Positions 13,094 through 17,713 of a stretch of 64,000 nucleotides of DNA are shown piece after piece. The translations under genes were made by a program, and so were the position numbers. Below the pieces are notes generated by a model. That model was not told where the DNA came from and did not search any database. It saw only the letters and a program-made list of their open reading frames with translations. The DNA is from Tahibacter soli. Lineage in GTDB: Bacteria > Pseudomonadota > Gammaproteobacteria > Xanthomonadales > Rhodanobacteraceae. Position 1 is the stretch's first letter. Every line of letters starts with the position of its first letter. The stretch lies in assembly GCF_025717065.2 (NCBI RefSeq), contig NZ_JAOVZO020000020.1, positions 620,001-684,000 of the forward strand, read 5' to 3'.

Positions 13094-14224
13094 ATGTTCA
13101 CGAAACCCGTACTCGCGGGCGCCCTTGCGCTCGCCCTCGCCGGCCCGGCCCAGGCCTACGACTGGCTCAACGACTGGCCGACGAAGTTCAAGACCGACGA
13201 CGGCGTCGAATTCGGCGTTAAGGGCAATTTCCAGTACGACCTCAACGCGTTCAGCGACGAGGTGTCGAATCCGAACATCCAGACGTGGCGCCGCAAGGAG
13301 ACCTATCTCTACGCGAAGAAGAACGGCGTGTGGGAACTGACCGCCGGCTACGATTTCCAGAGCCGCCTGTGGGTCGACGCGTTCTTCCGCATCTTCACGA
13401 AGAACGCCGGCGACTTCCGCATCGGCCAGTCCAAGACCTGGGTCGGCTACGACGAAGGCACCGTCGGCTCGGGCGCCACGACGTTCCTGGAACGCCCGCT
13501 GCCGGTGCAGGCGGTCAACCAGGGCCGCCGCATCGGCCTCGACTGGACCTACGAAAAAGTGCCGGGCGTGATCCTGCAGGCCGGCTACTACTCCGGCGGC
13601 GACTTGAACGGCGACAACGACGGCAACACCTGGGCCGGCCACGTCGTGTGGAATCCGGTCAAGACCGACAAGAGCGTCGTGCACCTGGGCCTCGCAGGCT
13701 CGGTCGAAGAGCGCGACGACGAGGTCGCCCGCTTCCGCGCGCGCCCCGAGGCCAACCTCACGGCGCTGCGCTTCGTCGACACCGGCAATCTCGCCGGCAC
13801 CGACCGCATCAACCGCTTCGGCGTCGAAGGCGCGTGGGCCGAAGGTCCGTTCTCGGTCGTCGGCGAATGGCTGCAGATCAGCGCGAACCGCGACAACCGT
13901 CCGGACTACGTCGGCGACGGCTACTACGTGTACGGCAGCTGGGTCGTCACCGGGGAGTCGCGCGCGTACAAGAGCGGCGCGTTCGGCAACGTCAAGCCGG
14001 CCAATCCGTGGGGCGCCGTCGAACTCGCGCTGCGCTATTCGCAGCTCGACCTCAACGACGGCCTGGTCAAGGGCGGCAAGCAGCACGACTGGACGTTCGG
14101 CGCGAACTGGTACCTCGGCACGCACCTGAAGCTGCAGGCGAACTACATTCGCGCGACCAGCGAGCGCGGCAATCTCTCGGTCGATCCGAACATCACCGAA
14201 GTGCGCGCGCAGGTCTACTTCTGA
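13094..14224 (+). CDS. Phosphate-selective porin O/P family outer-membrane protein
   Basis: A 376-residue beta-barrel protein with a cleavable signal peptide (residues 1-21, cut after AQA). Alternating aromatic/hydrophobic strands continue to the end, and the last residue is Phe (QVYF), the usual BAM-recognition C-terminus. The order of motifs (KGNFQYDLNAF, RRKETYLYAKKNGVWELTAGYDF, RIGQSKTW, LERPLPVQAV, RRIGLDW) matches the OprO/OprP family, which forms trimeric channels for phosphate, polyphosphate or other anions. The actual substrate cannot be read from the sequence. It is monocistronic, flanked by its own promoter candidate and terminator. Confidence 0.9.
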   Translation: MFTKPVLAGALALALAGPAQAYDWLNDWPTKFKTDDGVEFGVKGNFQYDLNAFSDEVSNPNIQTWRRKETYLYAKKNGVWELTAGYDFQSRLWVDAFFRIFTKNAGDFRIGQSKTWVGYDEGTVGSGATTFLERPLPVQAVNQGRRIGLDWTYEKVPGVILQAGYYSGGDLNGDNDGNTWAGHVVWNPVKTDKSVVHLGLAGSVEERDDEVARFRARPEANLTALRFVDTGNLAGTDRINRFGVEGAWAEGPFSVVGEWLQISANRDNRPDYVGDGYYVYGSWVVTGESRAYKSGAFGNVKPANPWGAVELALRYSQLDLNDGLVKGGKQHDWTFGANWYLGTHLKLQANYIRATSERGNLSVDPNITEVRAQVYF

Positions 14225-14342: not shown

Positions 14343-14773
14343 CGACCATCCGTCGCGCCGGACGTCGCGGGTCGGCGACGATTCACGCGGATCGTCGCGC
14401 ACGCAAGCGATTGATCGGCCAAGCGAAGATTGCGCATCCGCCCGCACCGCGCCGGAACAATGGCAAGATGCGCCTTTTTCCACGAACGACTTCTTAACGG
14501 TGCGGCGCGTATGAAAGCTTTTGCGATCAGCCCGGGTCTTGAATGCGCGACGGACGACAACCGCGTCGCCCGTTGATTGCCACTCACGATCCGGCGCCTT
14601 GCACTGCAGCATCGCATCCGCTTGTGAGCCGCAATACGTAAGGCATAACGTTATCGTCCCGCGCGGACGGAGGGCAGACCTCAAGGCAGGTTCTCCCACG
14701 CGCGAGGCGGTGCAGCTGCAACCGCAGCCGATACCCCTGCGAGCTCGCGCTCGCCCACCACGGAGAACTTGCA
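14343..14773. other. Leader/promoter region of the RiPP cluster
   Basis: No gene is convincing in this 430-bp stretch. It contains a perfect 10-bp palindrome ATAACGTTAT at 14645-14654, notable in GC-rich DNA and 120 bp before the precursor start, and cggag at 14760-14764 as the ribosome-binding site. Bufferin-type operons are often driven by ECF sigma factors under copper or other stress, but I see no promoter I can assign with confidence. Confidence 0.4.
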
Positions 14774-15244
14774 ATGTCCACGAAGATCGCGAAACCGCTG
14801 ACCCTCGCCTTCATCGGCAGCCTGTCCGTCGCGTCGCTCGCGCACGCCGACACCGCGTTCCAGCTCAACCAGCTCGCCGGCGGCTACATGACCACCGGCT
14901 TCGGCGAGGGCAAGTGCGGCGAAGGCAAGTGCGGCGTCGCCAAGATGGATACGAACAAGGACGGCTCGGTGTCGAAGGCCGAGTTCGACGCAGCCGGCGG
15001 CAAGAAGTTCGACGCCATCGACACCGACAAGAACGGCTCGATCAGCGAAGCCGAGTTCGCCGCCCACATGAAGGCGCACGAAGGCAAGTGCGGCGAAGGC
15101 AAGTGCGGCGGCGCCAAGAAGTCGGCCGAAGGTTCCTGCGGCGGCGACAAGGGCGACAAGAAGGCAACCGAAGCCGCCGCCGGCGCCAAGAAGAAGGCCG
15201 GTGAAGGCAAGTGCGGCGAAGGCAAGTGCGGCGGCAGCATGTAA
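14774..15244 (+). CDS. HvfA/bufferin-type RiPP precursor with two EF-hand loops
   Basis: A 156-residue secreted precursor. The signal peptide runs to AHA (residues 23-25). Then comes [11 protein letters not shown], typical of HvfA/BufA-like precursors. Six EGKCG motifs occur as three tandem pairs (residues 45-54, 103-112, 144-153) plus one EGSCG (119-123), giving seven cysteines in total. Between the first and second pairs lie two canonical EF-hand loops, [12 protein letters not shown] (59-70) and [12 protein letters not shown] (83-94). In studied relatives the DUF692/DUF2063 enzyme pair converts EGKCG cysteines to oxazolone/thioamide or thiooxazole groups that bind copper. Here copper-type and calcium-type ligand sites sit in one chain. 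The stop codon overlaps the ribosome-binding site of the next gene (taaggag), so the two are translationally coupled. The EF-hand fusion is the unusual point. Confidence 0.88.
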
Positions 15245-15254
15245 GGAGTCCGCG

Positions 15255-16112
15255 ATGAGCCCGCGTACCGCGTTTCACGGCGCGGGCCTCGGCCTGCGGC
15301 GAGCCCTGATGGGCTCGCTGCGGGATGCGCCCGACGCTGCGATCGACTTCTTCGAAATCGCGCCGGAAAACTGGATCAACGTCGGCGGCGCGCTCGGGCG
15401 CGAACTGCGCGCCTTTACCGAACGCCACGCGTTCGTCTGCCACGGGCTGTCGCTGTCGCTCGGCGGTCCCGAACCGCTCGACGAAACGCTGCTCGTCAAA
15501 ATCCGCCGCCTGATCGACGCGCACGGCATCGCGCTCTACAGCGAGCACCTGTCGTACTGCTCCGACGACGGCCATCTGTACGATCTGATGCCGATACCGT
15601 TCACGGCAGAAGCGGTCGACTACGTCGCCGCGCGCGTTCGCCGCGCGCAGGACGTGCTCGGGCGCCGCATCGCGATCGAAAACGTGTCGTACTACGCCGC
15701 GCCGGGCCGCGAGCTCGACGAGGCGACGTTCGTCCGCGCCGTACTCGACGCCGCCGACTGCGACCTCCTGCTCGACGTCAACAACGTCTACGTCAACAGC
15801 ATCAACCACGGCTACGACCCGGACGCGTTTCTCGCGGCGATGCCGGGCGAACGCATCGCGTACTACCACGTCGCCGGGCACTACGACGAAGCGCCAGATC
15901 TGAAGGTCGATACGCACGGCGCGCCCGTGATCGATCCGGTCTGGTCGCTGCTCGAACACGCCTATGCGCGGTTCGGGGTACGTCCGACGCTGCTCGAACG
16001 CGACTTCAATTTTCCGCCGCTCGCCGAACTCGTCGGCGAGCTCGATCGCATCCGCGCCGCGCAGGCGCGGCACGAACAACCCGCGCGGGCACGCCATGTC
16101 GCCGCCGGCTGA
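15255..16112 (+). CDS. hvfB: DUF692 multinuclear iron oxidase (HvfB/BufB-like RiPP enzyme)
   Basis: A 285-residue TIM-barrel enzyme of the MNIO (DUF692) family, which uses two or three iron atoms to oxidise precursor cysteines. Visible family motifs: FFEIAPENW (about residues 31-39), [43 protein letters not shown] and [10 protein letters not shown]; their His, Glu, Asp and Asn residues are the iron ligands. The ATG at 15255 follows a perfect aaggag at 15243-15248. It overlaps hvfC by 17 bp. Its substrate is inferred to be the EGKCG protein encoded immediately upstream. Confidence 0.94.
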
Positions 16113-16872
16113 ACCGTCGCGCACCCAGGATCTGCAGCGGCATTTCGCGGCGTGCATCCGCGCGCCGGAGTCGGCCGACCTGCCCGACGGCGTCGCGCCC
16201 GAACGCATGGCCGTGTACCGCGAGCTGTTCTTCAACAATGTGGAAGGTTTGCTCAGTGCGAATTTTCCGGTCATCCGTTCGCTGCGCGGCGATGACGCGT
16301 GGTATGCCCTGGCGCGCGACTTTCTGCGCGAACACCGCGCACAGACGCCGCTGTTTCCGGAATTCGCGCGCGAATTTCTGCGCTATCTCGAACGGCGGCA
16401 GGGCGAAGACCGCGGCGATCCGCCGTTTCTGCTGGAACTGGCCCACTACGAGTGGGCCGAACTCGCGCTGTCGCTCGACGAGCATGAAATCGCCGATGCC
16501 GCACACGATCCCGACGGCGACCCGGTCGCCGGCGTGCCGGTGGTTTCGCCGCTCGCGTGGCCGCTCGGCTATCGCTACCCGGTGCATCGGATCCGTCCCG
16601 ACTATCAGCCCGACGCCGCGCCGGACGAGCCGACGCTGCTCCTGCTCGTGCGCGATCGCGCCGACGAGGTCGGGTTCATGGAAATCAACGCGATCACCGC
16701 GATGCTGATCGAGCGTCTGCAAGAAAACACGCGGAGCACCGGTCTTGAAGTGCTCGATGCACTGCTGGCGGAAGTCGCGCCCGATCACGTCGAAAAGCTG
16801 CGGGACGGCGGCATTGCAATGCTGCGCGAACTGAGGCGTCGTGACGCGATTCTGGGTACGACGGCCGCGTAA
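16096..16872 (+). CDS. hvfC: DUF2063 (HvfC/BufC-like) RiPP partner protein
   Basis: A 258-residue protein of the DUF2063 family. The N-terminal domain has the conserved [36 protein letters not shown] and [10 protein letters not shown] segments; the C-terminal half is a wHTH-like/MbnC-like domain. In bufferin and HvfA clusters this protein binds the precursor leader and assists the MNIO enzyme. The start at 16096 lies inside the 3' end of hvfB, the usual coupled arrangement. A repeat element follows immediately and separates it from the DoxX gene. Confidence 0.92.
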
Positions 16873-17047: not shown

Positions 17048-17713
17048 ATGAGTACCCTCGCAACCGGCGTCCTGAACGCCTGGGAAGGCTTGAACGCGCG
17101 CCTGCGCGGCGCCGGCGAAGTGCTGCCGCGTTTCGTCCTGCGCCTCGTCATGGGCTGGGAATTCTGGGAATCGGGCCTGGAAAAGCTGCACGGCGAAAAC
17201 TGGTTCGCCGATATCCAGGCCAAGTTTCCGTGGCCGTTCAACGTCATTCCGGCCGACCTGTCGTGGAGCGTCGCGACCTGGTTCGAGATCGCCGGCGGCC
17301 TCGCGCTGTGGCTCGGCTTCGGAACGCGCTTCTTCGCGTTCTCGCTGCTGTTCCTGACCTTCGTCGCGACCGCCGCCGTGCACTGGCCCGACATGTGGAC
17401 GATGTGGAGCGATCTTCTGAAAGGCTATGCGATCACCGACGCCGGCCACGGCAACTTCAAGCTGCCATTGCTGTTCGTCGTGATGCTGCTGCCGCTGATC
17501 TTCAACGGCCCCGGCAAACTGAGCGTCGACTACGTCATTGCGCGCCTCGTCGGCGCCACGACCTATCCGGCGGCCACCAACGATTTCTACACCTGGGCGA
17601 TCGCCGCCGCGGTCGTCGGCCTGCCGTTCCTGATGCTCACGCCGCTGTCCGGCGCCGCGCTCCTCGCGCTCGCGGCCGTACTCGCGCTGATCGGCCGCTA
17701 CCTGCGCCATTGA
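17048..17713 (+). CDS. DoxX-family membrane protein (HvfD-like)
   Basis: A 221-residue integral membrane protein. It starts with a short amphipathic region, then [21 protein letters not shown], the DoxX signature, followed by four or five hydrophobic helices ([57 protein letters not shown]-terminal [15 protein letters not shown]). DoxX proteins occur as the last gene of many HvfABCD/bufferin clusters; the proposed roles, redox or transport of the modified peptide or its metal, are not settled. A ribosome-binding site (agagaa) precedes the ATG. The gene is 175 bp from hvfC because of the intervening repeat. Confidence 0.88.

Follow-up and report, generated by a model that had tools for sequence, protein, structure and literature searches.

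The locus analyzed here raises the question of why a cysteine-rich precursor peptide should hold a pair of EF-hand calcium loops between its EGKCG motifs, and whether Ca2+ takes part in what becomes of its cysteines. The locus lies in a stretch of 64,000 nucleotides of the Tahibacter soli genome (GCF_025717065.2, contig NZ_JAOVZO020000020.1, positions 620,001 to 684,000), referred to below as the window. The encoded protein has seven EGxCG motifs with cysteines at residues 48, 53, 106, 111, 122, 147, and 152; the EGKCG motifs start at residues 45, 50, 103, 108, 144, and 149, the single EGSCG at residue 119, and the EF-hand loops at residues 59 and 83 (Table 1). When the frame was reread, every position that a preliminary description from the letters alone had assigned to the reading frame, the cysteines, the EGKCG and EGSCG motifs, and the EF-hand loops was borne out, which confirms that sequence observation as correct in every detail. 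The fusion of a precursor to two EF-hand loops, also proposed there, agrees with matches above cut-off to both Pfam EF-hand_5 (E value of 2.1e-10, 40 bits; cut-off, 25.9) and NCBIfam NF050137, the HvfA-family KCGExKCG model (47.6 bits; cut-off, 19.5). A 14-base pattern describing EGKCG codons has six matches in the genome (6.65 Mb), each of them inside the precursor gene, and the reversed pattern, used as a control, has none. Together, the Pfam and NCBIfam scores and the codon-pattern search rule out a chance motif or a misread frame. The N terminus, which by eye reads as a putative Sec signal, is hydrophobic, ends in AHA, and is kept in relatives; A23 and A25 are shared by all 13 sequences that were aligned, that of the window among them.

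Table 1. Features of the hvfA locus, in coordinates of the window
Feature	Position	Strand	Remarks
Porin_O_P gene, upstream of hvfA	13094..14224	+	Profile match
Promoter-like block TTCTTAAC...TATGAAAG, upstream of hvfA	14491-14517	+	
Candidate leader RNA of hvfA	14686..14772 (to 14776)	+	Possible helix between 14686-14696 and 14762-14772
Short G+C-rich hairpin immediately 5′ of ribosome-binding site	14739-14754	+	
hvfA-type precursor with EF-hand core	14774..15244	+	ATG start, 156 aa
Putative N-terminal Sec-type signal sequence, residues 1-25	14774..14848	+	By-eye reading
N-arm, Cys48/Cys53	14906..14935	+	Last Cys 6 residues ahead of EF loop 1
EF-hand loop 1, residues 59-70	14948..14983	+	
EF-hand loop 2, residues 83-94	15020..15055	+	
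C-arm pair 1, Cys106/Cys111	15080..15109	+	
C-arm lone EGSCG, Cys122	15128..15142	+	
C-terminal pair, Cys147/Cys152	15203..15232	+	
hvfB, MNIO (DUF692) RiPP maturase	15255..16112	+	Profile match; ATG chosen by us
hvfC, DUF2063 partner (RiPP recognition) protein	16096..16872	+	Profile match; ATG chosen by us
hvfX, DoxX-family membrane protein	17048..17713	+	Profile match

The DUF692/DUF2063 enzyme pair on which the preliminary description had relied is encoded directly 3′ of the precursor, with both proteins above the cut-offs of curated NCBIfam models (HvfB, 435.6 bits against 360; HvfC, 297.2 against 142), as is HvfX (128.9 against 80). With the start codons that we chose, ten bases separate the precursor stop codon from hvfB, and hvfB and hvfC overlap by 17 bases. 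The nearest sequence matches in the PDB are the DUF692 protein 3bww for HvfB (E value of 3.9e-73) and 3dee for HvfC. By number and motif, R15, R16, and D250-F251 of HvfB correspond to R15, R16, and D249-F250 of FonB. In an alignment of 100 HvfB rows, R15 is present in 96 and R16 in all of the 97 rows with a residue there, D250 in all 100, and F251 in 99; HvfB appears to keep the FonB determinants of EGKCG processing. On the other side of hvfA, the Porin_O_P gene recurs in six genus relatives (loci L010 to L015; 66 to 73% identity, part of the gene held), making it a candidate, though unproven, member of the system. The same genome also carries a second, different MNIO locus (L002:1185-2310, on contig 14), in which ApyH (466.2 bits; cut-off, 400) follows an ApyA-type precursor whose last residue is Asp (90.1 bits; cut-off, 47); going by these profile matches, it is an aminopyruvatide-type cluster.

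The combined label given in the preliminary description, HvfA/bufferin type, holds for its HvfA (captophorin) half and fails for bufferins proper, which are ruled out because a Pfam search of the precursor gave no match to DUF2282 and the window MNIO misses the cut-off of the BufB model (261.4 bits against 310). Repeated EGKCG pairs beside genes for an HvfB-family MNIO, HvfC, and HvfX place the precursor with the HvfA type, at a score below the strict HvfA equivalog model NF050188 (44.5 against 95 bits). Two further candidates were rejected: lanmodulin (NCBIfam LanM NF053806, 29.5 bits against 135) and a XopAW-like effector (below the Pfam and NCBIfam cut-offs). As judged by its sequence, the window precursor is an HvfA-type RiPP precursor in an EF-hand-containing branch, and not a bufferin proper.

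Such fusions had been thought unpublished in the preliminary description, a belief that does not stand. EGKCG/EF-hand fusions are described in the accessible text of PMC12452194 (2025, Antoine et al.), and EfhP is another studied relative (PMC4053335, PMC9132961, PMC11559002); because both are published, the idea that the EF-hand-containing form is an already described subfamily, which had been named as counting against the proposal, largely applies. According to the accessible parts of these reports, DUF692 and DUF2063 genes lie in the efhP operon (PMC4053335). EfhP binds Ca2+ with a Kd of 13.7 µM and is predicted to be periplasmic, in a compartment whose Ca2+ is said to mirror or exceed outside levels (PMC9132961); it is described with four EGKCG repeats, and dual Ca/Fe sensing was proposed in 2024 (PMC11559002). 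A structural change of EfhP on Ca2+ binding and an effect on iron-uptake regulation are also reported (PMC9132961, PMC11559002). As for the chemistry, PMC13097082 and PMC13419390, in their accessible text, give the EGKCG modification as a 5-thiooxazole, revising an oxazolone/thioamide assignment. Copper binding by thiooxazole EGKCG peptides is reported in PMC13097082, and PMC12538549 describes a 5-thiooxazole on another EGKCG peptide together with Cu(I) binding by an EGKCG-derived peptide. In the open literature, including the running text of PMC12452194 as distinct from its Figure 3l and supplements, we found no report of a modified EF-hand form and none of EF-hands flanked by two cysteine arms. 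The EGKCG/EF-hand fusion is not new; the two-armed form is distinct and frequent among relatives.

To describe these relatives, we call a precursor a sandwich if cysteine motifs both precede and follow its EF-hands and single-armed if they only precede them. We classified 100 loci, 20 of them from a search of 97 same-family genomes and 80 being the best of 279 relatives of the window precursor, for which reason the set leans toward EF-hand forms. Three loci had no EGKCG precursor; among the other 97, 67 precursors have two EF-hand loops, 30 have none, and none has one. The search for further precursors with both motifs, called for in the preliminary description, thus found them in 67 of 97 cases (window counted) in this biased set, divided into 45 sandwiches and 22 single-armed forms, and the sandwich is the commonest EF-hand form within it. 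In a broader, less biased sample of 94 HvfB loci above cut-off, taken from 274 genomes across the class with the window's own locus left aside, we counted 59 EGKCG precursors without EF-hands, five sandwiches (one of which, L181, is the same protein as L036), and no single-armed form, the rest being eight with weak motifs and 22, some at contig ends, in which no precursor was found. The EF-hand form is a minority there, at five of the 72 precursors with any motif. A hidden Markov model of the EF module gave no hit in the 30 precursors that lack EF-hands (best E value, 1.8), so the module appears to be gained or lost whole. A single-strain oddity is ruled out, since the precursor is present in seven of eight genomes of the genus (the remaining assembly, in some 830 contigs, is 87% complete) and has relatives in other families.

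Some variants within the set deserve mention. The precursors of L027, a same-family genome, and L076, from Mizugakiibacter, are identical, and five sandwiches (L015 to L018 and L031) have a C-arm without any EGKCG. The EF-less precursors of L021 to L024 and L037 have a different middle part (DKAAQDKC or similar) with two extra cysteines, as well as EGSCS repeats, i.e., with Ser after Cys. Sixteen Pseudomonas EF/EGKCG loci have no neighboring MNIO gene (L070, L071, L073, L077 to L079, L081 to L083, L087, L091, L092, L099, L101, L105, and L107), and in three of them (L073, L077, and L081) the contig stops about 200 bases after the gene. All 16 of these genomes, and two others searched along with them, carry an MNIO, of whatever type, somewhere, in one case as a fragment only; the search covered these genomes, and L050 and L057 are two further EF loci of this kind.

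How these forms are related was approached through a quick, unrooted HvfB tree built from 100 loci with a precursor and a long enough HvfB, of which 50 are EF-less, 44 sandwich, and 6 single-armed. The three precursor states require seven changes on this tree, compared with 37.3 in shuffles. Of the 50 EF-hand rows, 47 fall within a single 58-row block, made up mostly of Lysobacterales and Pseudomonas, where the sandwich is the common state (41 rows). Five single-armed rows (Pseudomonas, Stenotrophomonas, and Rheinheimera) lie among the sandwiches of this block, in a group whose inner order is unsettled, and the sixth, from Nitrosomonas, lies at the block edge. A single EF-hand clade is rejected (p-AU of 7.6e-5). 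The simplest reading would be that the single-armed type descends from sandwiches through loss of the C-arm, with separate EF-hand gains elsewhere; because the tree is unrooted, the direction from sandwich to single-armed is one that we infer.

The calcium loops themselves are well kept. Among 103 distinct loops (49 first and 54 second), position 12 is E in every case, where the search pattern also allowed D and Q, and position 9, which the pattern left free, is S, T, or D in 102. Positions 1, 3, 5, and 6 prove less, because the pattern fixed them wholly or in part. Within the genus, the loop ligands are unchanged except for N3D and D5N in loop 1 of L013, and silent changes occur at positions 1, 9, and 12 of loop 1 and position 12 of loop 2; this codon check is weak because the remaining loop 2 ligand codons are invariant. 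None of the 67 EF-hand precursors has a cysteine inside the EF region. The last N-arm cysteine stands six residues ahead of loop 1 in 38 of the 45 sandwiches (nine in four others, and 13, 15, and 18 in the rest) and nine residues ahead in 21 of the 22 single-armed forms, with six in the remaining one. On the other side, the spacing floats, the first C-arm cysteine following loop 2 by 9 to 28 residues. In canonical EF-hand geometry, a residue six positions ahead of a loop lies in the entering helix; the N-arm modification site and loop 1 would therefore be physically tied, and the C-arm would be free relative to the calcium core. The fixed N-arm spacing can, however, also reflect descent. An AlphaFold model made with 25 sequences predicts a folded core with disordered arms: block means are 89 to 95 for residues 61 to 100 and 74 for residues 51 to 60, compared with a mean of 60.1 and a pTM of 0.40 for the whole model and values below 50 for most of both arms. 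A predicted helix at residues 92 to 107 runs into the first C-arm motif.

The region upstream of hvfA is also conserved in the genus and contains a candidate leader RNA, of which the 3′ strand (14762-14772) holds the GGAG ribosome-binding site. A 122-base leader folds at -57.9 kcal/mol with a z score of -3.41; a 163-base window leader reaches only -1.99 and prefers a different fold. Across the seven genus leaders, the scores lie between -3.93 and +0.08. Six of these seven (window, L010 to L012, L014, and L015) share a helix of 11 to 12 pairs that none of 100 shuffles reaches in any of the six and that is absent in L013; its predicted probability is 0.98 to 1.00 in the six and 0.00 in L013 (cut about 105 to 115 bases upstream). 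In RNAalifold, both sides changed in only three of the 36 pairs, and the covariation term was close to zero. The leader of L037, a distant hvfA without EF-hands, has a helix of 12 pairs at the corresponding position, built from other bases, and, like the genus leaders, it has two hairpins after this helix; a longer fold of it favors another pairing (helix at 0.02 versus 0.63). By shuffling, ten of 97 leaders have a P value of ≤0.05. The helix scores 27 in the window and 26 in L037; of 260 control genes, none attains the former value and one attains the latter. The hvfA leader may, on these folding predictions, act as a translational control that hides the ribosome-binding site.

An Rfam search of the leader gave no match, ruling out an element known to Rfam. 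Our leader model R1 matched 40 of 233 family genomes at an E value of ≤0.1, seven strongly, all of them genus hvfA leaders, and 33 weakly (7e-4 to 0.09). For eight of these 33 (L210 to L217), about 3 kb was scanned and contains neither EGKCG nor EGSCG; five of the eight are homologous stretches. Weak, chance-level matches also occur elsewhere in the window and in other loci. A decoy ribosome-binding site competing for the hiding strand is not supported in the six genus leaders and is possible in L037. Within the HvfB block, 45 of 55 leaders have a short hairpin immediately 5′ of the ribosome-binding site, compared with 19.7 in shuffles (maximum, 28); outside it, 24 of 42 do, compared with 11.9 (maximum, 17). 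Because the hairpin is enriched there too, it is not special to the block. Farther upstream, the promoter-like block is kept in the window, L011, L012, L014, and L015 and altered in L010 and L013. A consensus scan upstream of hvfA found no sigma-70 site, so a sigma-70 promoter there is not supported.

Cytosolic Ca2+ is too low for folding an EF-hand pair. This background enters the reading that we favor, at slightly better than even probability, in which the window encodes the precursor of a copper-binding thiooxazole peptide that is modified in the cytosol, exported, folded by Ca2+ in the periplasm, and left with two copper arms. HvfB and HvfC would oxidize the cysteines of the EGKCG motifs, and perhaps of the EGSCG, to 5-thiooxazoles on the unfolded chain in the cytosol, and Sec would export the protein while it is still unfolded. 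The higher Ca2+ of the periplasm would then fold the EF-hand pair into a compact, Ca2+-bound core, and the short N-arm, in fixed register to loop 1, and the long, flexible C-arm would jointly bind Cu(I) and so protect the envelope. For the window precursor, we infer all three: modification, copper binding, and Ca2+-driven folding. Several results count against this reading: the low score with the strict HvfA model, the minority share of EF-hand forms in the broader sample, the five sandwiches whose C-arm has no EGKCG, and the Pseudomonas EF loci lacking an MNIO next to the precursor gene. Which of its cysteines would be modified can be judged by analogy to FonBC, which, according to the accessible text of PMC13097082, tolerated replacement of the Lys by A, R, or T, took only Gly or Ala after Cys in a double-variant panel, and left a lone repeat unmodified. 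On this substrate range, the EGKCG pairs should be good substrates and the lone EGSCG is doubtful; isolated as it is, it may stay a thiol.

Two alternatives, each of them unlikely but to be taken seriously, assign the EF-hands another role. The protein might be a calcium sensor first, i.e., an EfhP-like periplasmic Ca2+ sensor whose modified arms report or tune with a second metal, iron or copper, so that the Ca2+ state would change metal or partner binding. EfhP, with its two EF-hands, four EGKCG repeats, Ca2+ binding, and effect on iron uptake (accessible parts of PMC9132961 and PMC11559002), speaks for a sensor, and the publications on it point to regulation by Ca2+ and iron, not copper, which counts against the favored reading. 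Through the near-fixed spacing between cysteine and loop 1, Ca2+ could influence the thiooxazole closest to it, whereas the register of the C-arm is not fixed. No more and no less probable is the idea that the EF-hand pair is a passive, folded spacer that keeps a sticky, copper-loaded peptide soluble or confined to the periplasm, with Ca2+ in a purely structural role and irrelevant to copper. The all-or-none behavior of the module, without a trace in the EF-less precursors, and the repeated switching of precursor type relative to the HvfB tree, where one EF-hand clade is rejected, are consistent with such a core, as is the report that an EGKCG product made with copper precipitated, for which aggregation was proposed (accessible text of PMC13097082). 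However, the near-fixed spacing of the N-arm cysteine to loop 1 exceeds the needs of a spacer.

That Ca2+ alters copper binding at all seems to us rather improbable. It is tempting to speculate further, as a joint reading that we hold to be decidedly improbable, that the locus encodes a two-metal clasp under a leader RNA that hides the ribosome-binding site: a copper buffer that depends on calcium and is regulated through its own RNA. The single-armed EfhP type would then be a trimmed descendant. Folding by Ca2+ would here lock the nearest N-arm thiooxazole and bring it near those of the C-arm, copper would not be bound tightly until the peptide had left the cytosol, and translation of the precursor would be switched by the leader RNA. 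Least probable is that the cysteines of the EF-hand branch remain plain thiols, as the Pseudomonas EF loci without an adjacent MNIO gene (16, three of them contig-cut) might suggest, given that hvfB in the window begins ten bases past the precursor stop with its family motifs kept and that those 16 genomes still carry an MNIO, one only as a fragment.

EF-hand captophorin precursors link research on bacterial Ca2+ sensors such as EfhP with that on MNIO-made copper peptides. As a natural construct, the sandwich allows one to ask directly whether modification, folding, or copper binding is under Ca2+ control, with the single-armed relatives as a comparison supplied by evolution. If Ca2+ does control copper binding, this would explain the presence of a Ca2+-binding protein in a copper-peptide operon.

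Among known systems, the lanmodulin structures 6mi5 and 8fns (the latter deposited as an EF-hand domain-containing protein) are the best PDB sequence matches of the precursor, over the first EF-hands only, and leave out the cysteine arms beyond residue 52. Bufferins Buf1 and Buf2 belong, according to the accessible text of PMC12452194, to the shared class of exported, MNIO-modified copper peptides; the window precursor differs from them in lacking DUF2282 and in an MNIO below the BufB cut-off. With HvfA/oxazolin, fontiphorin, and other captophorins (PMC13097082, PMC13419390) it shares EGKCG pairs, HvfB/HvfC-type enzymes, and a DoxX gene; their product is a 5-thiooxazole, and no EF-hands are named in the accessible text of these papers. 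EfhP (PA4107) of Pseudomonas, as described in the accessible reports, has two EF-hands and DUF692 and DUF2063 genes in its operon in common with the window, and four EGKCG repeats and measured Ca2+ binding of its own. The single-armed Pseudomonas relatives, to which we liken EfhP by its description only, end in a tail without EGxCG motifs. Closest is the Buf_EGKC|EF-hand_5 chimera, type 2 of PMC12452194, which, in the accessible text, has a signal or membrane segment, a short EGKCG segment predicted to be unstructured, two EF-hand_5 domains, and MNIO, DUF2063, and DoxX neighbors. The window precursor likewise has an EGKCG segment and two EF-hand_5 domains beside an MNIO gene, as judged with Pfam and NCBIfam models rather than with the Buf_EGKCG profile of those authors, and all 25 sandwich proteins of our set A2, that of the window among them, have E values of ≤0.001 for both EF-hand_5 and NF050137. 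By sequence, its paired loops have canonical ligands at positions 1, 3, 5, 9, and 12, and AlphaFold pLDDT values below 50 for residues 29 to 50 and 112 to 156 agree with an unstructured EGKCG part. Whereas that text places the EF-hands C-terminal to the EGKCG part, in the window precursor they are followed by a further cysteine arm, in which residues 103 to 153 carry five more motifs.
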